Translations under genes and position numbers: made by a program | Notes under the pieces: generated by a model | Seen by the model: only the letters and a program-made list of their open reading frames with translations | The model's database searches: none | What the model was told of the DNA's origin: nothing | Part shown: in pieces, positions 156 through 58,607 of the stretch | Numbering within the stretch: the stretch's first letter is position 1 | How the letters are laid out: each line of letters begins with the position of its first letter | Assembly (NCBI GenBank): GCA_007694935.1 | Contig: REES01000073.1 | Coordinates: 1 to 64,000, forward strand | Reading direction: 5' to 3' | DNA length: 64,000 bases | From: Rhodospirillales bacterium | GTDB taxonomy: Bacteria; Pseudomonadota; Alphaproteobacteria; Rhodospirillales; Defluviicoccaceae

Positions 156-1724
156 ATGCAAGTTACGGAAATCAAGGCCGAAGGGCTCGCCCGCCAGTTT
201 CGCATCCAGGTGCCGGCAGCCGACATCGACAAGCGGGTGCAGAATCGGCTGCGCGAACTCGCGGGGCAGGTGCGCCTGCCCGGCTTCCGCCCGGGCAAGG
301 TGCCGGTGGCGGTGCTGCAGAAACGCTATGGTGCTGCCGCCCACGGCGAGGCGGTGGAACAGGCGCTCGACGAATCGTCGAGGAACATCCTGAGCGAGCG
401 CGGCCTCAGGCCGGCAGTGCAGCCGAAGATCGATATCGTCTCGGCGACCGCCGGCGCTGATCTGGAGTTCACCCTGGCGGTGGAACTGCTGCCCGAGGTG
501 GCGCCGCCCGATTACGGCGCCATCACCCTGGAGCGCCCGGTGGCGGAGCCGGCGGATGCTCAGGTGGAGGAAACCCTCGGCCGGATCGCCGAGACCTTCA
601 AGGGCTCCCGCCCACTCACCGAGGACCGGGCGGCACTGCCGGGGGACATCGTGGTGGTCGACTATGTCGGCCGGGTCGACGGCAAGGAATTCGAAGGCGG
701 TACCGCACAGCGGGCGGAGATCGAGCTCGGCGCCGGCAGGTTCATCCCGGGCTTCGAGGAGCAGCTCATCGGCAGCCGTCCCGGCGAAGACCGCGAGCTG
801 ACGGTGACCTTCCCCGAGGCGTTCCCGGCCAAGGACCTGGCGGGCCGGGAGGCGGTGTTCTCGGTTCACATCCACGAGCTCCGCGAGAGCGAGCCGGTGC
901 TGATCGACGACAGCTTGGCGGTCAAGATGGGCCTGGACAACGTCGAGAGCCTGCGGAAGCGCGTGCGCGAGACCCTGGTGACCCGGCTCAGCGAGGCCTC
1001 GCGGATGCGCGTGAAGCGGGCGCTGCTCGACCGTCTCGCGGAGATGTACGATTTCGACCTGCCGCAGGGGATGGTCGATCGCGAGTACGAGAGCATCATC
1101 CGGCAGTTGGCGGGCGAAGAGGATGCTGCCGAAACCGCGGACCAGGCGGATGCCCATGCGCATGATCACGATCATGATCACGCCCACGACCATGATCACG
1201 ACCATGCACACGATCATGATCATGACCACGACCATGATCATGCGCATGATCACGCCCATGTGCACGGCGACGCTGACCCCGGCCATGACCCTGCTCATGC
1301 GGGCGAGGCGGCGGCGCAGCCCAAGTTGACCCCGGAGCAGGCGGCGGAGTACCGCTCGATTGCCGAGCGCCGGGTGCGCCTTGGTCTGGTGCTGGCCGAG
1401 ATCGCCCGCACCAACAACCTTCAGGTGACCCAGGAAGAGCTCAGCCGGGCGATGGTGGCCGAAGCCCGCCGCTACCCCGGCCAGGAGCAGAACGTCCTGA
1501 AGTACATGCGCGAGAACCCGGCGATGGCGGAGGCCCTGAGCGGTCCGATTCTTGAAGAGAAGGTGGTGGATTTTATCATCGAGATGGCGACGGTTACCGA
1601 CAAGGCGGTGACCCCGGACGAGCTGCTGAAGCCGGAGGGAGACGACGCACCACCGTCTTCGGACCAGCCGAAGGGTCAACCGGCCGGCACGGCCGAGGCG
1701 GGATCGGCGTCGACCGAGCCGTAG
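156..1724 (+). CDS. tig: Trigger factor with His/Asp-rich insertion
   Basis: Ribosome-associated chaperone and peptidyl-prolyl isomerase that meets nascent chains at the exit tunnel. The start chosen gives MQVTE, the usual family N-terminus, behind a GGGGGAG ribosome site; an ATG three bases earlier is equally possible. Order: N-terminal ribosome-binding domain (about residues 1-145), an FKBP-like isomerase domain (about 150-245, with the GxFIPGFEE segment), then the C-terminal chaperone arms. At 522 residues it is about 90 longer than E. coli Tig. Most of the excess is a run of alternating His and Asp/Ala at residues 334-381 (21 His in 48 residues) inside the C-terminal region, which is not a normal part of the family. 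It heads the tig-clpP-clpX-lon-hup group. Identification is secure; the role of the insertion is unknown, metal binding being the obvious guess. Confidence 0.96.
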
Positions 1725-1878
1725 ATGCCGGGCTGTCGCCGCCGGCCGGAACCGTGCAGCTCGGGCGGGCCCTTTGGGCACCCCGTTGCGATCGGAGCGG
1801 ACGGTGCCATTTGATCTGGGAGTGACGGGGGCTGAACGGCGGTCCCGCCGGCTCTGGACGGAGGCTTGCAAGAACATC

Positions 1879-2532
1879 ATGGCGGAGACGTTCGAGACAC
1901 ACATGAACATGCTGGTGCCGATGGTGGTGGAGACCACCAGCCGGGGCGAGCGCGCCTACGACATCTACTCCCGCCTGCTCAAGGAGCGGATCATCTTCGT
2001 CACCGGCGGCATCAACGATGCGGTGGCCAGCCTCGTTTGTGCCCAGCTGCTGTTCCTGGAATCGGAAAACCCGAACAAGGATATCGCCTTCTATATCAAT
2101 TCCCCGGGCGGCATCGTCACCTCGGGCCTCGCCATTTACGATACCATGCAGTATATTCGGCCGCAGGTTTCCACCGTTTGCATCGGCCAGGCGGCATCCA
2201 TGGGCTCGCTCTTGCTGGCTGCGGGCGCGCCGGGCAAGCGCTACGCGCTCCCCAACGCCCGCATCATGGTGCACCAGCCCTCCGGCGGCGCCCAGGGGCA
2301 GGCGACCGACATCGAGATCCAGGCGCGCGAGATTCTCGCGTTGAAGAAGCGCCTGAACGACATCTACGTAAGTCATACCGGACAATCATTGGACGTGATC
2401 GAGTCGTCCCTGGAACGCGACCGCTTCATGAACCCGGAAGAAGCGAAGGCCTTCGGCATCGTCGATGAGGTGGTGATGAGCAGGCCGAAGCTGGCCGCTG
2501 ATGAGCCGAAGGCGGGCGGCAAATCGTCGTGA
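1879..2532 (+). CDS. clpP: ATP-dependent Clp protease proteolytic subunit
   Basis: Serine protease that forms the double-heptamer chamber of ClpXP and degrades unfolded or tagged proteins in the cytoplasm. The chosen ATG gives a 217-residue protein beginning [18 protein letters not shown]. The catalytic triad is visible as Ser107 (in GQAASMGS), His132 (MVHQP) and Asp181 (ERDRF); the spacings of 25 and 49 residues match E. coli ClpP exactly. The glycine-rich INSPGG oxyanion segment is also present. It lies 154 bp after tig and 151 bp before clpX, in the conserved order. An in-frame ATG upstream at 1774 has no family support and was not used. Confidence 0.97.
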
Positions 2533-2683: not shown

Positions 2684-3949
2684 ATGAGCAAATCCGCAGG
2701 TGGCGATTCCAAGAACACGCTGTACTGCTCCTTCTGCGGCAAGAGCCAGCACGAGGTCCGGAAGCTGATCGCCGGACCCACGGTGTTCATCTGCGATGAA
2801 TGCGTCGAGCTCTGCATGGACATCATCCGTGAAGAGCACAAGACCAGCCTCATCAAGTCCGGCGAAGGGGTGCCGTCACCGCGGGAGATCGCGGGTGTTC
2901 TGGACGATTACGTGATCGGCCAGCACCGTGCCAAGCGGGTGCTGTCGGTCGCCGTTCACAACCATTACAAGCGGGTGAACCACGGCGTCAAAAGCAACGA
3001 CGTGGAACTCGCCAAGTCCAACATCCTGCTGATCGGGCCCACCGGCTGCGGCAAGACGCTGCTGGCGCAGACGCTGGCCCGCATCCTCGACGTGCCGTTC
3101 ACCATGGCCGACGCCACGACGCTGACCGAGGCCGGCTACGTCGGCGAGGACGTGGAGAACATCATCCTGAAGCTGCTCCAGGCCGCCGACTACAACGTCG
3201 AGAGGGCGCAGCGCGGCATCGTCTACATTGACGAGGTGGACAAGATCTCCCGCAAGTCCGACAACCCCTCGATCACCCGGGACGTTTCAGGCGAAGGCGT
3301 GCAGCAGGCCCTGCTCAAGATCATGGAGGGCACGGTGGCGAGCGTGCCGCCCCAGGGCGGCCGCAAGCATCCCCAGCAGGAGTTCCTGCAGGTGGACACC
3401 ACCAACATCCTGTTCATCTGCGGCGGCGCCTTCTCCGGTCTTGAGAAGATCATTTCCGCCCGCACCAAGGGCACCACCGTCGGTTTCGGTGCCGAGGTGC
3501 GCGGCCCGGACGAGCGGATGACGGGTGAGATCATCCGCGACGTGGAGCCGGAGGACCTGCTCCGCTTCGGCCTGATCCCAGAATTCATCGGCCGTCTCGC
3601 GGTGGTGGCGACGCTGGAGGATCTGGACGAGTCCGCCCTCATCGATATCCTGACCAAGCCCAAGAACGCGCTGGTGAAGCAGTACCAGCGTCTGTTCGAC
3701 ATGGAGGGCGTGCGGCTGGAGTTCACCGAGGGCGCGCTTGCCAATGTCGCGCGGCGCGCGGTGGTGCGCCGGACCGGCGCCCGTGGCCTGCGCTCGATCA
3801 TGGAGAACATCCTGCTCGACACCATGTACGAGCTGCCCAGCCTGGAGGGCGTCGAAGAGGTGGTGATCAACCGCGAGGTTGTCGATGGGCAGGCAAAACC
3901 TCTCTACATCTATGCCGACCGCCGCGGTGACGTTGGCTCCAGCGCTTGA
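2684..3949 (+). CDS. clpX: ATP-dependent Clp protease ATP-binding subunit ClpX
   Basis: AAA+ unfoldase that recognises substrates and feeds them to ClpP. 421 residues, normal for the family. The N-terminal zinc-binding domain has Cys15, Cys18, Cys37 and Cys40. Walker A is GPTGCGKT at residues 118-125, Walker B reads IVYIDEVDK, and a VGF sequence stands where the ClpP-docking IGF loop is expected. The start is the ATG following GAAGGA. Read with clpP it forms the complete ClpXP protease. Confidence 0.97.
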
Positions 3950-4091: not shown

Positions 4092-6506
4092 ATGACTGTG
4101 ACCGAAGTCCAGATCTATCCGGTGCTCCCGCTGCGTGACATCGTGGTGTTTCCGCACATGATCGTGCCGTTGTTCGTCGGCCGGGAGAAGTCGGTGCGCG
4201 CGCTCGATGACGTCATGAAGGACGACAAGCAGATCCTGCTGGTCGCCCAAAAGAACGCCGCGCAGGACGAGCCGACCACGGAGGAGATGTACAAGGTCGG
4301 CACCATCGCGACGGTGCTGCAACTCCTCAAGCTGCCGGACGGCACGGTCAAGGTCCTGGTGGAGGGCGGTCAGCGGGCGATGATCCAGCGTTTCACCGAC
4401 CGCGAGGCGTTTTTCGAGGCCGAGGCGGCCGTGGTTAGCGAAGAAGTGGGGGATCCGCAGGAACTCGAGGCACTCGGCCGCTCGGTCGTGGGTCAGTTCG
4501 AACAGTACATCAAGCTCAACCGCAAGATCCCGCCTGAGGTGCTGGTCTCCATCAATCAGATCGAGGAACCGGGCAAGCTCGCCGATACCATCACCTCGCA
4601 CTTGGCGCTGAAGATCGCCGAGAAGCAGGAACTGCTGGAGATGGTGGTGGTGGGGGAGCGGCTGGAGCGGGTCTACGCCCACATGGAGTCCGAGATCGGG
4701 GTGCTCCAGGTGGAGAAGCGCATCCGCAGCCGGGTCAAGCGGCAGATGGAGAAGACCCAGCGGGAGTACTATTTGAACGAGCAGCTCAAGGCGATCCAGA
4801 AGGAACTCGGCGAAGGTGAGGAGGGGCGCGACGAACTGGCCGAGATCGAGGAACGGATCGCCAAGACTCACCTCAACAAGGAAGCCCGGGAGAAGGCTCT
4901 GGCCGAGCTCAAGAAGCTGCGGTCAATGAGCCCGATGTCGGCCGAAGCGACGGTCGTGCGCAACTATCTCGACTGGATGCTGACGATCCCGTGGAAGAAG
5001 CGTTCGCGGGTCAAGAAGGACATTCGTCTGGCCCAGGAAATCCTCGATGCCGATCACTATGGCCTGACCAAGGTGAAGGAGCGCATTGTCGAGTATCTGG
5101 CGGTGCAGCAGCGCACCCGAAAATTGCGCGGCCCGATCCTCTGCTTGGTTGGCCCGCCCGGGGTCGGCAAGACGTCTCTCGGCAAGTCCATCGCCCGGGC
5201 CACCGGCCGCAACTTCGTGCGGATGTCACTGGGCGGCGTGCGCGACGAGGCGGAGATTCGCGGTCATCGCCGGACCTACATCGGTTCGATGCCGGGCAAG
5301 ATCATCCAGGGCATGAAGAAGGCCAAGACGTCGAACCCGCTTTTCCTGTTCGACGAAGTGGACAAGATGGGCCATGACTGGCGCGGCGACCCGGCTTCGG
5401 CGCTGCTTGAAGTCCTGGATCCGGAGCAGAACTCTCACTTCAATGATCACTACCTGGAAGTGGACTACGATCTGTCGGACGTTCTGTTCATAACTACGGC
5501 GAATACCATGAATATGGCGCCGCCGCTTCTCGACCGGATGGAGATCATCCGCATCTCCGGCTACACCGAGGACGAGAAGGTGGAGATCGCCCGCCGTCAC
5601 CTGATCCCCAAGCAGATCGAAGCCCACGGCCTGAAGAAATCCGAATGGGATATCTCCGATTCGGCCCTGCGCGAGTTGATCCGCTACTACACCCGGGAAT
5701 CCGGCGTCCGCAATCTCGAGCGGGAGTTGGCCAACCTGGCGCGGAAGTCGGTGAAGGAGATCATGCTCGACAACGCCAAGGAGGTGCAGATCAGCCGCCG
5801 CACCCTCGGCAAGTTCGCAGGCGTGAAGCGCTACCGCTACGGCGAAGCGGAGAAGGAGGACCTGATCGGCGTCACCACCGGCCTCGCCTGGACCGAGGTC
5901 GGCGGCGAACTGCTGAGCGTCGAGGCGGTGCTGGTTCCCGGCAAGGGCCGGATCATCATCACCGGCAAGCTCGGGGACGTGATGCAGGAATCGGTGCAGG
6001 CCTCGAAATCCTACGTCCAGTCGCGGGCCGTGCAGATCGGCGTGCCGCCGACCACCTTCGCCCGCAAGGACATCCACGTTCACGTGCCGGAGGGGGCCAC
6101 GCCCAAGGACGGTCCGTCCGCCGGGATCGCCATGGTCACCTCCATCGTCTCGGTGTTGACCGGGATTGCCGTGCGCAAGGACATGGCGATGACCGGGGAG
6201 GTGACCCTGCGCGGGCGGGTGCTGCCCATCGGCGGCCTCAAGGAGAAGCTGCTGGCAGCGCATCGGGGCGGCCTCCGGTGTGTGCTGATCCCGGCCGACA
6301 ACGAGCGCGAGTTGTCGGAGATCCCGGACAACATCAAGCGGGCGATCGAGATCGTGCCGGTGTCGACCGTCGACGAGGTGCTGAGCCACGCCCTGGTCAG
6401 CAAGCTGTCGCCGATCGAATGGGATGAGTCCGCGGAGCTGGAAGCGGCGGCTGTGGCGGCAAGCCGGGTCGACGAAGACGAGGTGGGTGGCGTCGTGACT
6501 CATTGA
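4092..6506 (+). CDS. lon: ATP-dependent protease Lon
   Basis: Cytoplasmic AAA+ serine protease that removes misfolded and regulatory proteins. 804 residues: an N-terminal substrate domain beginning LPLRDIVVFP, an AAA+ module with Walker A GPPGVGKT at 354-361, and a C-terminal protease domain with catalytic Ser676 in KDGPSAG and its Lys partner at about 719 (GGLKEK), the same 43-residue spacing as in E. coli Lon. The ATG at 4092 was preferred to one 39 bp upstream because it matches the family N-terminus. It is 142 bp downstream of clpX. Confidence 0.97.
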   Translation: MTVTEVQIYPVLPLRDIVVFPHMIVPLFVGREKSVRALDDVMKDDKQILLVAQKNAAQDEPTTEEMYKVGTIATVLQLLKLPDGTVKVLVEGGQRAMIQRFTDREAFFEAEAAVVSEEVGDPQELEALGRSVVGQFEQYIKLNRKIPPEVLVSINQIEEPGKLADTITSHLALKIAEKQELLEMVVVGERLERVYAHMESEIGVLQVEKRIRSRVKRQMEKTQREYYLNEQLKAIQKELGEGEEGRDELAEIEERIAKTHLNKEAREKALAELKKLRSMSPMSAEATVVRNYLDWMLTIPWKKRSRVKKDIRLAQEILDADHYGLTKVKERIVEYLAVQQRTRKLRGPILCLVGPPGVGKTSLGKSIARATGRNFVRMSLGGVRDEAEIRGHRRTYIGSMPGKIIQGMKKAKTSNPLFLFDEVDKMGHDWRGDPASALLEVLDPEQNSHFNDHYLEVDYDLSDVLFITTANTMNMAPPLLDRMEIIRISGYTEDEKVEIARRHLIPKQIEAHGLKKSEWDISDSALRELIRYYTRESGVRNLERELANLARKSVKEIMLDNAKEVQISRRTLGKFAGVKRYRYGEAEKEDLIGVTTGLAWTEVGGELLSVEAVLVPGKGRIIITGKLGDVMQESVQASKSYVQSRAVQIGVPPTTFARKDIHVHVPEGATPKDGPSAGIAMVTSIVSVLTGIAVRKDMAMTGEVTLRGRVLPIGGLKEKLLAAHRGGLRCVLIPADNERELSEIPDNIKRAIEIVPVSTVDEVLSHALVSKLSPIEWDESAELEAAAVAASRVDEDEVGGVVTH

Positions 6507-6770: not shown

Positions 6771-7049
6771 GTGAACAAGAACGATTTGATAACGACGGTT
6801 GCGCAAGATGTCGGCTTGTCCAAAGGGGACGCCACCAAGGCGGTGGACAGGGTGTTCGCCGTGATCTCCGATGCGCTGAAGGAGGGCGAAGAGGTCAAGC
6901 TGGTCGGCTTCGGCACCTTCAGCGTCTCCGAACGGGCGGCGTCCCAAGGCCGCAACCCGCGCACTGGCGAGCCGATGGAGATCGCCGCCAGCCGGCAGCC
7001 GAAGTTCAAGGCCGGCAAAAGTTTGAAGGACGCACTCAACGGTCACTGA
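6771..7049 (+). CDS. hupB: DNA-binding protein HU
   Basis: Small histone-like protein that binds and bends DNA as a dimer in the nucleoid. 92 residues, typical size, beginning MNKNDLI. The conserved GFGTF turn and the DNA-binding arm (GRNPRTGEP, then the Pro-Lys-Phe-Lys-Ala-Gly-Lys stretch) are intact. The start is a GTG behind AAGAAGGGGG. It follows lon, as in many proteobacteria, but has its own candidate promoter and a strong terminator, so it is probably also transcribed as a single gene. Confidence 0.97.
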   Translation: MNKNDLITTVAQDVGLSKGDATKAVDRVFAVISDALKEGEEVKLVGFGTFSVSERAASQGRNPRTGEPMEIAASRQPKFKAGKSLKDALNGH

Positions 7050-50331: not shown

Positions 50332-50877
50332 GTGGGCCCGACTGCTGTTTCCGGATTGCCTCCTGTCACCCTCATTCTCGGCGGTGCCCGCTCCGGCAAG
50401 AGCGCGTATGCCGAAGCGATGGTGTGTGCCGCCGGCCCCGGCCTCTACCTCGCCACCGCCGAGGCCGGCGATGCCGAGATGGCGGACCGCATCCGCCATC
50501 ACCGGGCCCGTCGCGGCGCGTGTTGGACGACGGTGGAAGAGCCGCTGGACCTGGTGACCGCGCTGGGCCGGCTGGCGGCACCGGATCGAACCATCCTGGT
50601 CGACTGCCTCACCCTCTGGCTCAGCAACCTGATGGCAGCGGAGCGCGACGTCGCCCTGGAGACCCGCCGCCTGCAGGCGGCGCTGGCCGACCTGCCGGGA
50701 CCCGTCGTTCTGGTCAGCAACGAGGTCGGGCTTGGCCTGGTGCCGACCACGCCGCTCGGCCGGCTCTTTCGCGATGCCGCCGGCCGCCTCAACCAGGCGG
50801 TTGCCGGGATCGCCCAACGGGTGGTGTTCATCGCCGCCGGCCTTCCCCTGATCCTCAAGGAACCCGACAGACCATGA
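50332..50877 (+). CDS. cobU: Adenosylcobinamide kinase/adenosylcobinamide-phosphate guanylyltransferase
   Basis: Bifunctional enzyme (CobU/CobP) that phosphorylates adenosylcobinamide and adds GMP. 181 residues, GTG start. The P-loop is LGGARSGKSAYAE at the N-terminus, with YLATAEAGDAEMADRIRHHRARRG (the GMP-accepting His, read in part), DCLTLWLSN and VSNEVGLGLVPTTPLGR. First gene after the riboswitch; its stop overlaps the cobW start (ATGA). Confidence 0.95.
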   Translation: MGPTAVSGLPPVTLILGGARSGKSAYAEAMVCAAGPGLYLATAEAGDAEMADRIRHHRARRGACWTTVEEPLDLVTALGRLAAPDRTILVDCLTLWLSNLMAAERDVALETRRLQAALADLPGPVVLVSNEVGLGLVPTTPLGRLFRDAAGRLNQAVAGIAQRVVFIAAGLPLILKEPDRP

Positions 50878-51905
50878 AAACGCCCGTCACCGTGATCACC
50901 GGCTTCCTCGGCGCCGGCAAGACGACCTTGCTCCGCCACCTGCTCACCCATGCCGCCGGTCGGCGCATCGCCGTCATCATCAACGAGTTCGGTGACCTCG
51001 GGGTGGACCGGGAGCTGCTGCTGGGTTGTGGCATCGCGGGCTGCGGCGAGGACGACTTGGTGGAACTGCCCAACGGCTGCATCTGCTGCACCGTCGCCGA
51101 TGCGTTCCTGCCGACCATTGAACGGCTGCTGCACCGGGTCGATCCGCCGGATCACATCGTCATCGAGACCTCAGGGCTGGCCCTGCCAAAGCCGCTGATC
51201 AAGGCGTTCGATTGGCCGGAGGTGCGCTCCCGGGCCACCGTCGACGCCGTGGTCGCGGTGGTCGATGCGGCTGCGGTGGCGGCTGGGCAATTCGATGGGG
51301 ACGGGTCCGGCAGGGCAGGGGCTCTGGCCGGCGGTCAGCCCGTCGACCACGAATCTCCGCTGGAGGAGCTGTTCGAGGATCAGGTCCTGGCTGCGGACCT
51401 GGTGGTCCTCAACAAGACGGACCTGGTGGACCCGACGATGCTGGCGGCCGTGCGCGGGCGGGTCGGCGTCACCGCCCGGCCGGCCACCAAGGTGATCCCC
51501 GCGCGTCACGGCGGACTCGACTTGACCGCGTTGCTGGGCGTCGGTGCGGCCGCGGAGGATGATCTCGCCGCCCGTCCATCCCACCATGACGCCCCTGGAC
51601 CCGACGATGACCACGGCCACGATGAATTCGAGAGCTTCGTGGTCGAACTCGCCGCCATTGCCGATCCGGCGGTGCTCGAGCGGCGGCTCAGCCGCGTGCT
51701 GGCCGAGCACGACGTGCTGCGCGTCAAGGGCTTCCTGGATGTCCCGGACAAGGCGATGCGCCACGTCGTCCAGGCGGTGGGGCCGCGTATCCAGCGGTAT
51801 TATGATCGGCCCTGGCAGGTGGACGAGGCGCGCCTGAGCCGCCTCGTGGTGATCGGGCGGTCGCCGCTGGACCAGGCCGCGGTGCAGGCCGCTCTGGCCG
51901 GCTGA
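50874..51905 (+). CDS. cobW: CobW-type GTP-dependent metal chaperone
   Basis: COG0523 GTPase, here most likely delivering cobalt to the chelatase CobN. 343 residues. Walker A GFLGAGKTT begins at residue 10, the metal-binding GCICCTV motif follows near 70, a short His/Asp-rich tract (DDDHGHDE) precedes the C-terminal domain, and VLNKTDL is the guanine-specificity motif. Overlap with cobU and a 32-bp gap to cobN point to cobalt rather than zinc or nitrile hydratase maturation. Confidence 0.93.
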   Translation: MKTPVTVITGFLGAGKTTLLRHLLTHAAGRRIAVIINEFGDLGVDRELLLGCGIAGCGEDDLVELPNGCICCTVADAFLPTIERLLHRVDPPDHIVIETSGLALPKPLIKAFDWPEVRSRATVDAVVAVVDAAAVAAGQFDGDGSGRAGALAGGQPVDHESPLEELFEDQVLAADLVVLNKTDLVDPTMLAAVRGRVGVTARPATKVIPARHGGLDLTALLGVGAAAEDDLAARPSHHDAPGPDDDHGHDEFESFVVELAAIADPAVLERRLSRVLAEHDVLRVKGFLDVPDKAMRHVVQAVGPRIQRYYDRPWQVDEARLSRLVVIGRSPLDQAAVQAALAG

Positions 51906-51937
51906 TGGCGCCGACCCGATGATCCACCGCTGATACC

Positions 51938-54900
51938 GTGCACCTTCTCGCCTCCACCCCCGGTGGTCTCGTCGACGGCGCGGAGGCGGTCGACCTGGAT
52001 CAAAGCCCGGGCGACTTCGTCGTGCTGTCGGCGGCCGATACCGAGCTCGCCTGCCTGGCGGCGGCGCGTGCGCGCATCCGTGATGCCGGGTTTCCGAGCC
52101 TCCGGCTGGCGAGCCTCCTGCACCTCGGCCACCATCTGTCCGTGGACCTGTATGTTGAGAAGACGCTTGCCCGGGCCCGCCTGGTGATCGTGCGGCTCCT
52201 GGGCGGGCGGAGCTACTGGCCCTATGGTCTCGAGCAGGTGGCATCCGCGTGTCGTGCGCGCGGCATCGCGCTGGCCGTCCTGCCGGGCGATGATGCGCCG
52301 GATCCGGAGCTGGAGGGTTATGGAACCCTGCCCCGGGAGCCGCTGGATCGTCTGTGGCGCTATGCTGTCGAGGGCGGCATCGACAATGCCCAGTCGATGC
52401 TCCGCTATGCGGCAACCCTGATCGGCCACGAAAGTCCGTGGCAAGAGCCGCGTCCGCTGCTGCGGGCCGGCATCTACTGCCCATCGGTCGCCGCCCCCGA
52501 TCTCGCTTCGGTCCGCCAGGGCTGGCGGGATGGCGCCGGTCGGGCGCTGCTGGTGTTCTACCGGGCGCTGATGCAGGCCGGGAACGTGGCCGTGATCGAC
52601 GGCCTGCTCCAGGCACTGACCGATACCGGCCTCAATGCGCTGGCGGTCTATGTGTCGAGCCTCAAGGACCCGCTCGCCGCCGCCATCCTGCGGCAACTGG
52701 TGGCGGAGGTCCCGCCGGACGTGATCCTCAATGCCACCGGCTTTGCCGTGTCCGCGCCTGGTGCGGAACCGGCCGACAGTCCTCTCGACGGCACCGACTG
52801 TCCGGTCATCCAGGTGATCTTCTCGGGCGGCGACCATGACGGCTGGCAGGCCGGGACCCGCGGGCTGTCCGCCCGCGACATCGCCATGAACGTCGCCTTG
52901 CCGGAAGTGGACGGGCGCATCATCAGCCGGGCGGTCTCGTTCAAGGGGCGGGAGCGCCGCGACGATGCGACCGAAGCCGACATCGTCACCTACCGGCCGG
53001 TAGCCGACCGCCTCGCCTTCGTCGCGAACCTGGCCGCCGCATGGGTGCGGCTCAGGCGGACTCCGGCGGCCATCCGGCGCGTCGCCATCGTGCTTGCCAA
53101 CTACCCCAATCGCGACGGACGCCTCGGCAACGGTGTCGGCCTCGATACCCCCGCAGGCACCGTCGCCGTGCTGGAGGCGATGCACCATGCCGGCTATCGC
53201 GTCGAGGACCTTCCGCCGGACGGCAACGCCCTGATCGGCCGCTTGGCGGCCGGCCCCACCAATGCCTATCACGCCCTGGACGGCCGGGTGCTGCAGGAAA
53301 CGTTTTCCCTCGCCGACTATCACCAGTTCTTCGCCGAATTGCCGGAGGCGACCCGGCATCGCGTCACCGAGCGTTGGGGGCCGCCGGAGCGGGACCCGCT
53401 CTACCGCCAGGGCGAACTGGACTGCGGCCGGTTCGCGATCCCGGCGTTTCGTTGTGGCAACGTCGCCATCGCCCTGCAGCCGGCCCGCGGGTATGGCATC
53501 GATCCCGCCTCCAGCTACCACGAACCGGACCTGCCGCCGCCCCATGGCTACCTCGCGTTCTACGCCTGGCTTCGCCATGGCTTTGGCGCCCATGCCGTGA
53601 TCCACATGGGCAAGCACGGCAACCTGGAATGGCTCCCCGGCAAGGCGCTGGCCCTGTCCCAGGCGTGCTTTCCGGAGGCGGTCCTGGGACCGTTGCCCCA
53701 TCTCTATCCGTTCATCGTCAATGATCCGGGTGAGGGCAGCCAAGCCAAACGCCGCACCCAGGCGGTGATCATCGACCACCTGACGCCACCGCTGACCCGG
53801 GCCGAAAGCTACGGCCCGCTGCGCGATCTGGAACGGCTGGTGGACGAGTATTTCGAGGCGGCGGGCCTCGATCCAAGGCGACTGCGCGTCCTGGCCGAGG
53901 AGATCCTGTCGCTTTGCCGCGTGTCCGGTCTGGACGAAGACTGCGGCATCGGACCCGCGGACGACCGCAATACCGCCCTCGGCAAGCTTGACGGCTATCT
54001 CTGCGAACTGAAGGAGATGCAGATCCGCGACGGGCTGCATGTGTTCGGCCGCTCCCCCCAGGGCACGCAGCTTCGGGACCTGCTGGTCGCCCTGGTGCGC
54101 ACCCCCCGCGGCGATGGCCGGGAGGGTGGTGCGTCACTGCTGCGGGCCTTGGCGGACGACCTGGACCTCGGCTTCGATCCGCTGGATGCGGCCCTCGGCG
54201 ATCCCTGGGTCGGCCCGCGGCCGGCGGTGCTCGCCGACAGAGAGGCGTGGCGCACCGTGGGCGACACCGTCGAGCGCCTGGAACGGCTGGCAGCGGCCCT
54301 GGTCGCGGGTGAAGCGGAACCTGATCCCGCTTGGCACCGGGCCGGTGCGGTTCTGGCCGCCGTGGCGGCGCGGCTGCGGCCCGCCGTGCTGGCCTCGGGA
54401 CCGGCGGAGGTCGAGGGGCTGTTGGCCGGGCTGGACGGCCGGTTCGTGGCGCCGGGGCCCGCCGGGGCGCCCACCCGCGGCCGGCCCGAGGTGCTGCCCA
54501 CCGGCCGCAACTTCTACGCTGTGGATACCCGGAGCGTGCCAACACCGGCGGCATGGACCCTCGGCTGGCGGTCGGCGACCTTGCTGATCGAGCGCCACGT
54601 CCAGGACCATGGTGCCTGGCCCCGACGGTTGGCGCTGACCGCCTGGGGCACGAGCAACATGCGTACCGGCGGCGACGACATCGCCCAGGGCTTGGCGCTG
54701 ATGGGGGTGAGGCCCACCTGGGACGGGGCGTCGGGCCGGGTCACCGGCTTCGAGATCATGCCGGCCACGGTGCTGGACCGGCCGCGGGTGGATGTGACGC
54801 TCCGCATTTCCGGTTTCTTCCGGGACGCGTTTCCGGGGCTGGTCGACCTGTTCGATGCGGCGGTCCGTGCCGTGGCGGCCCTGGACGAGCCGGCGGAGAC

Positions 54901-55714
54901 CAATCCGCTGGCCGAACGGGTGCGGATGGAGACCGATCGACTGGTCGCTGACGGCCTCGGCGAAGCGGAAGCCGCGGCCCTGGCGGGCAGCCGGGTGTTC
55001 GGCTCGAAGCCGGGTGCCTACGGGGCCGGTCTGCAAGCGCTGATCGACGAGGGCGGCTGGCGCACCGACGCCGATCTGGCCCGGGCCTACGTGGCGTGGG
55101 GCGGCTGGGCCTATGGCAGCGGCGTCGGCCCGGACGGCGAGGGGCGGGCGGCCCATCGGCAGTTCGAACTCCGCCTCGGCCAGGCCGAGGTGGTGGTGCA
55201 GAACCAGGACAACCGCGAGCACGATATCCTCGATTCCGACGACTACTACCAGTTCGAGGGCGGCATCGCCGCCGCGGTTCGGGTGCTGTCGGGCACCCAG
55301 CCCGTGGTCTACCATGCCGACCACGCGCGACCCGAATCACCGCGAATTCGCACCCTGGAAGAGGAAGTCGCGCGGGTGGTGCGCGCCCGCGTCGTCAACC
55401 CCAAGTGGATCCGGGGGGTGATGCGCCACGGTTACAAGGGCGGCTTCGAGATCGCCGCGACCGTCGACTACCTGTTCGCGTTCGCGGCCACCGCCCGCTG
55501 TGTCCGCGATCATCATTTCGATGCGGTCTTTCAAGCCTTTGTCGACAATGAAGAAGTTCGCGACTTCCTGGAGCGGAACAATCCCGAGGCCCTGGCCGAG
55601 TTGAGCGCCCGATTGCTCGAGGCGGAGGATCGGGGGCTCTGGCGTCCCCGCGCCAACAGCGCCCACGGCATGCTCGCGGCGATGGCAGCGCCGCGGAAGT
55701 CTTCAGGCGGTTGA
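51938..55714 (+). CDS. cobN: Cobaltochelatase subunit CobN
   Basis: Large subunit of the ATP-dependent aerobic cobaltochelatase that inserts cobalt into hydrogenobyrinic acid diamide (EC 6.6.1.2), working with CobS/CobT chelatase subunits not in this window. 1258 residues, the usual size. Recognised segments are the N-terminal MHLLAST with LSAADTEL, FSGGDHDGW, HMGKHGNLEWLPGK, VVQNQDNREHDILDSDDYYQFEGG and HGYKGGFEIAATVDYLFAF (the last two in part). The start is a GTG with a weak site, chosen by match to the family N-terminus. Confidence 0.96.
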   Translation: MHLLASTPGGLVDGAEAVDLDQSPGDFVVLSAADTELACLAAARARIRDAGFPSLRLASLLHLGHHLSVDLYVEKTLARARLVIVRLLGGRSYWPYGLEQVASACRARGIALAVLPGDDAPDPELEGYGTLPREPLDRLWRYAVEGGIDNAQSMLRYAATLIGHESPWQEPRPLLRAGIYCPSVAAPDLASVRQGWRDGAGRALLVFYRALMQAGNVAVIDGLLQALTDTGLNALAVYVSSLKDPLAAAILRQLVAEVPPDVILNATGFAVSAPGAEPADSPLDGTDCPVIQVIFSGGDHDGWQAGTRGLSARDIAMNVALPEVDGRIISRAVSFKGRERRDDATEADIVTYRPVADRLAFVANLAAAWVRLRRTPAAIRRVAIVLANYPNRDGRLGNGVGLDTPAGTVAVLEAMHHAGYRVEDLPPDGNALIGRLAAGPTNAYHALDGRVLQETFSLADYHQFFAELPEATRHRVTERWGPPERDPLYRQGELDCGRFAIPAFRCGNVAIALQPARGYGIDPASSYHEPDLPPPHGYLAFYAWLRHGFGAHAVIHMGKHGNLEWLPGKALALSQACFPEAVLGPLPHLYPFIVNDPGEGSQAKRRTQAVIIDHLTPPLTRAESYGPLRDLERLVDEYFEAAGLDPRRLRVLAEEILSLCRVSGLDEDCGIGPADDRNTALGKLDGYLCELKEMQIRDGLHVFGRSPQGTQLRDLLVALVRTPRGDGREGGASLLRALADDLDLGFDPLDAALGDPWVGPRPAVLADREAWRTVGDTVERLERLAAALVAGEAEPDPAWHRAGAVLAAVAARLRPAVLASGPAEVEGLLAGLDGRFVAPGPAGAPTRGRPEVLPTGRNFYAVDTRSVPTPAAWTLGWRSATLLIERHVQDHGAWPRRLALTAWGTSNMRTGGDDIAQGLALMGVRPTWDGASGRVTGFEIMPATVLDRPRVDVTLRISGFFRDAFPGLVDLFDAAVRAVAALDEPAETNPLAERVRMETDRLVADGLGEAEAAALAGSRVFGSKPGAYGAGLQALIDEGGWRTDADLARAYVAWGGWAYGSGVGPDGEGRAAHRQFELRLGQAEVVVQNQDNREHDILDSDDYYQFEGGIAAAVRVLSGTQPVVYHADHARPESPRIRTLEEEVARVVRARVVNPKWIRGVMRHGYKGGFEIAATVDYLFAFAATARCVRDHHFDAVFQAFVDNEEVRDFLERNNPEALAELSARLLEAEDRGLWRPRANSAHGMLAAMAAPRKSSGG

Positions 55715-56434: not shown

Positions 56435-57121
56435 ATGACCCTATGGACACGATCCGTCGTCGTCGCCGTGCTGGTCCTGGTGGTCGCCGCTTGCGGACAC
56501 GGCGCCAGCGAGAGCACCGAAGCGCAGGCCCTGGTCGACCGGGCCAAATGGACGGTGATGACCTTCCGGGAGAGCCCCGAAGACCCCAGTGACCTGTTCC
56601 GCTCGGAACTGGACAGTGCGGCCGGGATCATGGTGTTCCCCCGGGTGTTGCGTGGTGCGTTCGTGATCGGCGGCGAGGGCGGATCGGGTGTGCTGCTGGT
56701 GCGCGACGAGGCCGGGAACTGGAGCTATCCCGCCTTCTATACCATGGGCTCGGGCAGCTTCGGGCTGCAGGCCGGCGGGCAGGCCTCGGAAGTGGTTCTG
56801 CTGCTGCGGAGCCAGCGGGCGGTGGATCACGTGATCTACAACCAGGGCAAGTTCGGTGCCGACCTCGCGGTCACCTTCGGCACCATCGGTGCCGGCCTGA
56901 AGGGGGCCACCACCACCAACCTGGGGGCGGACATCCTGGGGATTTCGCGCAACGCCGGGCTTTATGGCGGCATGTCCCTGTCCGGCGCGGCCCTGGTGCG
57001 TCGGACCGATCTCAACAGCGCCTACTACGCGCCGGAAGCGACGCCGCAGGACATTGTCCTGGCCGGTCGCTATTCCAACCCGAACGCGGACCCGCTAAGG
57101 CGCGCCCTTGTCATCGAGTGA
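56435..57121 (+). CDS. SYLF-domain (Ysc84-type) lipoprotein
   Basis: 228 residues. A hydrophobic leader ends in the lipobox VVAAC with Cys20, so it is an envelope lipoprotein. The remainder is a SYLF/DUF500 domain: a helix [17 protein letters not shown], then [37 protein letters not shown], and late [16 protein letters not shown] and [13 protein letters not shown] repeats. SYLF proteins bind phospholipids. It lies 24 bp after cobO and overlaps cobQ by 14 bp, so it is translated within the cobalamin operon although no cobalamin role is known for the family. Confidence 0.88.
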
Positions 57122-58607
57122 GCGTCGGCGCCCGCGGGCGCTGATGCTGCAAGGGACGGGGTCCAACGTCGGGAAGTCGCTGCTGGTCGCCGGACTTTGC
57201 CGGGCATGGACCCGGCGGGGCTTGGCGGTGCGGCCGTTCAAGCCGCAGAACATGTCCAACAACGCCGCCGTCACCACCGACGGCGGCGAGATCGGGCGTG
57301 CCCAGGCCCTGCAGGCACGCGCCTGCGGCGTCGCCCCGTCCGTCGACATGAACCCCGTGCTGCTGAAGCCGCAGACCGACATCGGCGCCCAGGTGGTGGT
57401 GCACGGCAAGGTGGCGGGTAACGCCAAGGCCAGGGATTATCAGCGGCTCCGCCCGAGCCTGCTGCCGGCGGTCCTGGACAGCTTTGGAAGACTGTCGCGG
57501 CAGGCGGACCTGATCGTCATCGAGGGCGCCGGCAGCCCCGCAGAAGTCAACCTGCGGGCCGGCGACATCGCCAACATGGGGTTCGCGGAGGCTGCGGACG
57601 TGCCGGTGGTTCTGGTCGGCGACATCGACCGCGGGGGTGTGATCGCCGCGGTTGTCGGCACCTGCGAATTGTTGTCGATCAACGAGCGGCAGCGGCTCGT
57701 CGGCACCATCATCAACAAGTTCCGGGGGGACGTCCGGCTGTTCGACGGCGGCCTTCGCATTCTGGAGGAGCGGACCGGGCTCCGGTGCTTCGGGGTGGTG
57801 CCATGGTTCGATGAGGCAAGCCGGCTGCCGGCCGAGGATGCCGTGGTCCTGCAAGGCGGTTCCCGGGCATCTCGTGGCCAGGGACGTATCCGGGTGGCGG
57901 TGCCGGTGCTGCCCCGCATCGCCAACTTCGACGACCTGGACCCGCTGATCCACCAGGCGGAGGTTGCCGTGGATTTCGTGCCGCCGGGACGGGCGCTACC
58001 CGGCGACGCCGATCTGGTGGTGTTGCCGGGCAGCAAGGCGACCTTGGCCGATCTGGCCCAGCTTCGCGCTGAGGGCTGGGATATCGATATCATGGCGCAC
58101 GTGCGCCGTGGCGGCGCGGTGCTCGGCATCTGTGGCGGCTATCAGATGCTGGGACTGACGGTAAGTGACCCGAGCGGCATCGAGGGGCCACCCGGAGAGG
58201 CCGCCGGCCTCGGCCTGTTGCAGGTCGGGACCACGCTCTGGCCCGACAAGACGCTGACCGAGGTGACGGGGACCGAGTTGGCCACCGGTCTGCCGGTGAG
58301 CGGCTACGAGATGCACGTGGGCATCACCAATGGGCCCGGCTGCCTGCGGCCGATGCTGCAGCTCGGGGATCGGAACGACGGGGCGGTCTCCGCCGACGGA
58401 CGGATCGCCGGCTGCTACCTGCACGGTCTGTTCGCCGCCGACGCCTTCCGCCATGCCTTTCTGGACCGTCTTGTCGCCGGGGTGGTGCAGGTGGGGGAGG
58501 GGTTCGACGCCACGGTGGAGCGCACCCTCGACCGGCTCGCCGACCACCTCGCTTCCCATCTGGATCTCGAAACCCTGCTCGCCGCCGCCCTACCGGCGGC
58601 GACGTAG
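57108..58607 (+). CDS. cobQ: Cobyric acid synthase
   Basis: Amidates four side chains of adenosylcobyrinic acid a,c-diamide using glutamine and ATP (EC 6.3.5.10). 499 residues. The N-terminal synthetase domain starts [14 protein letters not shown] and contains [11 protein letters not shown] and [11 protein letters not shown]; the C-terminal class I amidotransferase-like domain has the catalytic Cys in [11 protein letters not shown] and a late His in YLHGLF. The TTG start, with AAGG eight bases before it, overlaps the preceding gene; an ATG at 57144 would leave only MLQGTGSN and is less likely. Confidence 0.94.

Follow-up and report, generated by a model that had tools for sequence, protein, structure and literature searches.

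The trigger factor (TF) encoded in the window, i.e. the whole 64,000-nucleotide stretch of Rhodospirillales DNA analysed here, carries a long loop rich in histidine and aspartate at the tip of its first arm. The reading we favour, at a rough probability of 0.55, is that this loop forms a general buffer for divalent metal (Zn, Ni or Co) on an abundant, ribosome-docked chaperone and that the tract is kept for its histidines. The features concerned are as follows:

156..1724, plus strand: tig, encoding trigger factor (522 aa; TIGR00115 at 381 bits; Trigger_N, FKBP_C and Trigger_C)
627..872, plus strand: FKBP-type prolyl isomerase domain of Tig, the single match in a PF00254 search of the whole genome
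1065..1154, plus strand: ascending helix of arm 1, residues 304-333, running into the tract (AlphaFold2); aligns with E. coli TF up to residue 319
1155..1298, plus strand: His/Asp-rich tract, residues 334-381 (48 residues, 21 His; predicted to be disordered)
1332..1412, plus strand: descending helix of arm 1, residues 393-419, past the tract (AlphaFold2); E. coli TF resumes at 337
1860..2532, plus strand: clpP, from its translation
2684-3949, plus strand: clpX, from its translation
about 4095-6506, plus strand: lon, from its translation
6771-7049, plus strand: hup, from its translation

Tig is a true trigger factor. Its score against the NCBIfam equivalog model compares with a cut-off of 180 bits, the Pfam models PF05697, PF00254 and PF05698 all match above cut-off and place the N-domain, the FKBP domain and the C-terminal arm domain in one chain, and the ribosome-docking motif GFRxGKxP appears in the alignment as GFRPGKVP (residues 43-50). 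The start codon is the ATG at 156, with a second in-frame ATG at 153. The downstream genes, which we take to be clpP, clpX, lon and hup from their translations and from established knowledge of these proteins, complete the order tig-clpP-clpX-lon-hup, the standard neighbourhood of tig. The window additionally holds a cobalamin cluster, in which a CobW-type GTPase is followed by CobN (50424-55714) and a CobB/CobQ-type amidotransferase (57108-58607).

The original prediction described a 48-residue tract with 21 His, and a recount returned exactly these coordinates and numbers: 21 His, 15 Asp and 7 Ala, the first tract His being residue 334 (window 1155) and the last residue 381 (ending at 1298). 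Alternation is strict in the core (residues 334-370, 19 His in 37), and the remainder of the 522-aa protein contains just three His. The placement in the C-terminal region rather than at a free tail likewise stood, with the tract lying inside the C-terminal domain as an exposed loop at the tip of arm 1. In the alignment with E. coli TF (1w26), the match runs up to residue 319 and restarts at residue 337; the insert hence stands in place of E. coli residues ~320-336, a short loop that we take, from the known 1w26 structure, to be the arm-1 tip. An AlphaFold2 model of Tig built with 51 alphaproteobacterial sequences reached a mean pLDDT of 88.5, dropping below 50 at residues 348-373 within the tract. 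Trigger factor structures rank first in a fold comparison of this model, and the match to 1w26 (Z 21.5) is full-length (427 residues, rmsd 11.9, domains shifted); below rank 7 the comparison covers mostly the FKBP domain and is informative on the arms from the TF matches alone. Together, the alignment gap, the framing helices and the fold match suggest that the insert is an exposed loop, probably disordered between two intact arm helices and leaving the fold intact.

How widely is this loop shared? A TF was found in nine of the 11 genomes searched from the host family, and all nine TFs (5 genera), at an overall identity of 42-79% to Tig of this window, have a His-rich insert at exactly the same site. 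The original prediction had turned to close relatives for conservation of the tract in position and length; position held throughout the family, but length did not, the core ranging from 11 to 73 residues while His was kept. The two remaining genomes (G005 and G009) gave no TF match, though G005 is 96% complete; their tig may have fallen into a gap of the assembly, perhaps at the repeat. A further oddity is the TF gene L007 (G003:C1:2037879-2039333, in a one-contig genome), whose FKBP region shows a stop or frame break with 1 internal TAA, possibly a sequencing error.

Across a sample of 199 genomes of the order, with at least 6 His in 20 residues called as a tract, 17 genomes were positive: nine of family f1, G019 (f10), four of f28/g62, two of f18 and G055 of f28, whose looser His cluster was counted in. 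Four sampled species of genus g62 have the tract and a fifth (G114) is without it by length. A class-wide sample of 385 genomes yielded about 20 TFs with a tract, among them that of the complete genome of Kordiimonadales bacterium IMCC3096 (CP018227), and in the pooled set the tract is found in 34 of 171 distinct TFs, a share that gives no frequency since the pool is enriched for tracts. On a FastTree tree of these 171 TFs, computed from the TF core without the loop, tract state changed by gain or loss at least 12 times across the Alphaproteobacteria, at least 8 of them on starred (well-supported) branches. In a phylum-wide survey with an arm profile, the flanks were too diverged to match outside the class. 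Most Alphaproteobacteria lack the tract, and its presence varies even within g62, which makes it dispensable in general; its repeated appearance in many alphaproteobacterial groups, always at the same loop, makes it look selected rather than accidental. An assembly artefact is an unlikely source, as the one-contig genomes G100, G107 and G393 have tracts, the TF of G393 being identical to that of CP018227 (L028). One record in the pool, titled Stygiobacter sp. (L060, VBWB01000004.1), contains an alphaproteobacterial TF close to f23/g55 on the tree and is probably a mislabelled genome bin.

Turnover this high is also what one might see if the tract were a neutral codon-repeat expansion in an indel-tolerant loop, an origin that the original prediction had left open. 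The loop does tolerate length change (28-56 residues in TFs without a tract), the L008 tract contains recent unit duplications and L101 has a pure hexamer repeat. In Tig itself, however, Tandem Repeats Finder reported only 71-77% matches and the His and Asp codons are mixed, so the tract is not a recent pure DNA repeat. More telling is the fate of the His codons. Among the tracts with strict alternation (23 in all), the His register is occupied by His at 290 of its 297 positions; Tyr and Arg, each one transition away from a His codon, never appear there (0 of each). The spacer positions hold Asp in 184 of 276 cases and otherwise Ala, Glu, Gly, Ser or Thr. When all 34 tracts are taken together, the two His codons are close to balance (CAT 206, CAC 239), and in 208 of 411 neighbouring pairs of His codons the two differ. 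In a neutral simulation, admittedly a simple model in which slippage is not included, even a CAT share of 31% leaves just 20% of His (80% lost). This codon comparison is no formal rate test, given that the set was picked for His content and that silent differences of older date may be propagated when a unit is duplicated; the contrast is nevertheless large. Near-invariant His alongside randomised synonymous codons thus disfavours neutral drift. Conservation concerns the presence of His at every other residue and neither the sequence nor the length. The retention of the tract in 9/9 family members, the recurrence of the same His/Asp composition in unrelated lineages, the many changes at one site and the restriction of such tracts in this genome, as far as coding frames were recognised, to Tig and proteins related to metal all point the same way. 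We consider neutral expansion very unlikely.

Metal binding is, from sequence, the likely job of the tract. The nucleotide pattern (CAY NNN)x4 CAY matches the genome 60 times, compared to 0 in the reversed control, with 15 of the 60 in the Tig tract, which is thus well outside what chance would produce. Other matches in recognisable frames lie in ZnuA (16), a MoxR-type AAA protein (8), a PCuAC-type copper protein (4), HypB (3) and CbiX (3), the last 11 being scattered outside recognised frames; it is this company that makes metal binding likely. Cys is scarce in these TFs overall but over-represented in the loops (7/2074 vs 14/14847, p=0.01). The pooled tracts consist of 51% His and 29% Asp, the composition of a His-rich low-complexity region. 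In a survey of prokaryotic low-complexity regions, His was 33-fold enriched in nickel-binding proteins, and those of cobalamin-synthesis proteins had a mean length of 36 residues, of which His made up 53% and Asp 23% (PMC6821194). The His/Asp regions of CbiX, HypB, ZnuA and other Co/Ni/Zn proteins, several of which occur in this genome, are of the same length class and composition (PMC6821194), although CbiX, HypB and ZnuA are dedicated metal proteins whereas Tig is a nascent-chain chaperone. The claim of a metal-loaded chaperone is therefore borne out in part: composition and the genome's other tract hosts strongly suggest binding, but the copper and cobalt genes of the window, which had been cited in its favour, are no evidence by themselves because tig sits in its ordinary gene order.

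Several other His-rich segments came to light in the same searches. The MoxR-type AAA ATPase (L168 2113-3330, G000:C105) has a His-rich stretch of ~50 residues and is flanked by an iron-type alcohol dehydrogenase and a VWA-like protein, with which it may form a metal-insertion pair. In the host family, the arm-1 tracts of L006 and L010 contain the motif HVHGPGCGHEH, nearly the same as a motif in the tail of sphingomonad TFs—a case of convergence or of a common building block. Eight Sphingomonadales-type TFs (L074, L078, L080, L086, L098, L215, L218 and L226) have their His motif (HVHGPGCGHDHH or an 11-residue one) in the C-terminal tail, not at the arm tip, and the TFs L029 and L175 have His-rich tails too. 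Rhodobacterales TFs with this loop type (L033-L107) show WHEENPEVxGHDHPEIEPTDEH at the arm-1 site in 29/29 cases, with four invariant His; going by sequence, this looks like a discrete metal site replacing the tract.

A role without metal could also be served by His/Asp runs, for instance as a charged, pH-responsive bristle at the arm tip that would affect solubility or contacts with the ribosome or ClpX. Homologous loops without a tract are acidic and hydrophilic, as such a role would lead one to expect, but selection acts on His and not on charge, the spacers varying where His does not, and metal is indicated both by the surplus of Cys and by the motif HVHGPGCGHEH. This makes the bristle quite unlikely.

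SlyD is an FKBP prolyl isomerase with a His/Cys-rich C-terminal tail and a nickel metallochaperone. Like Tig, it is a general folding protein that combines an FKBP domain with a long His-rich segment, disordered in SlyD and predicted to be so in Tig. Unlike Tig, it has an insert-in-flap domain, lacks both arms and a ribosome-binding domain, and bears its segment as a free tail at the C-terminus; in Tig, the FKBP part is followed by the TF arms, and the His-rich segment lies internally, as a loop of arm 1. The TF of the host family might accordingly have taken over the SlyD job, its tract holding nickel and passing it, with HypB, to [NiFe] hydrogenase. TF is the sole FKBP of the genome (one match to the PF00254 profile), the SlyD family model NF008008 (NCBIfam) matches neither Tig nor anything else in the whole genome, and SlyD-type matches are found in 0/11 family genomes compared to 62/199 genomes of the order. 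Moreover, HypB and the hydrogenase large subunit each score above cut-off in 9/11 family genomes, and the host itself has [NiFe] hydrogenase and HypB, the latter being His-rich.

The two go together in most of the family, but across the order HypB shows no association with the tract: it is present in 9/17 tract genomes vs 78/199 in the order (p=0.30), and in no independent pair do tract and HypB go in the same direction. In f28, four species combine the tract with a SlyD-like FKBP but lack HypB, while a congener without the tract has HypB; in f18, which has the tract, HypB is not above cut-off; and within the host family, G004 has the tract with neither HypB nor hydrogenase above cut-off. The survey of the order rules out the nickel-hydrogenase link as a general rule. 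Replacement of SlyD as a general rule is ruled out too, since in g62 and in G019 the tract coexists with a SlyD-like FKBP. SlyD loss and tract may be one shared ancestral event, and we regard a SlyD-like nickel role of the family TF as rather unlikely.

Alternatively, metal could operate TF as a switch, with Zn linking arms or molecules and shifting the protein between foldase and holdase or between ribosome-bound and free states. The tract does sit at the arm tip, and in E. coli TF arm 1 helps to form the region that binds clients (PMC7804408). The TF of Thermus thermophilus, a trigger factor whose behaviour is altered by Zn, binds Zn 1:1 and oligomerises, with Zn promoting the oligomerisation (PMC8614707). 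That protein, however, holds its one Zn through all three domains, a different site, and no comparable tract is described for it in the text consulted (PMC8614707). A core whose length varies as much as it does within the family also suits capacity better than a geometric switch, leaving the switch an unlikely reading.

Our preference for a general metal buffer over nickel delivery, a Zn switch or a non-metal role stems from the failure of nickel as a general rule. The sequences themselves establish the tract, its site, its recurrence, its genome context and the selection on His, whereas we infer metal binding and buffering, and the disorder is predicted from the model. The disordered, His/Asp-rich appendage at the arm-1 tip would bind metal, holding several divalent ions (Zn, Ni or Co) loosely and reversibly, and selection keeps histidine rather than a fixed sequence. 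As an abundant protein that repeatedly binds and leaves the ribosome exit, TF would serve as a cytosolic metal buffer or store, similar to the His-rich tails of SlyD and Helicobacter pylori HspA. Counting against the buffer are the general dispensability of the tract, the possibility of a non-metal role and the fact that no link to a specific metal enzyme was found in the HypB comparison (p=0.30). For metal on a trigger factor, the Zn binding measured in T. thermophilus is a precedent (PMC8614707). There is precedent for such dual use in that SlyD and H. pylori HspA are general folding proteins with nickel-binding roles, the latter through a His/Cys-rich extension (PMC7840056). HspA, a GroES, resembles Tig in being a housekeeping chaperone with a lineage-specific His-rich metal segment (PMC7840056), yet it belongs to another chaperone family, carries the segment as a C-terminal extension and has an experimentally established function, whereas Tig is known from sequence.

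One step further, TF could act as a ribosome-docked metallochaperone whose arm tip would bring Zn, Ni or Co to the tunnel exit and load nascent metalloproteins during folding, which we deem quite improbable; no description of such a co-translational route by TF was found in the literature searched. Similarly, a search of the open-access literature, which did not cover most subscription journals, turned up no paper on a trigger factor with a His-rich insert of this kind.

The question of how newly made proteins receive the right metal is still open, and loading is usually discussed as occurring after synthesis or via dedicated chaperones. The repeated gain of a His-rich tract at one site of TF provides natural with-and-without comparisons, even within one genus, for asking whether metal supply is coupled to protein folding.
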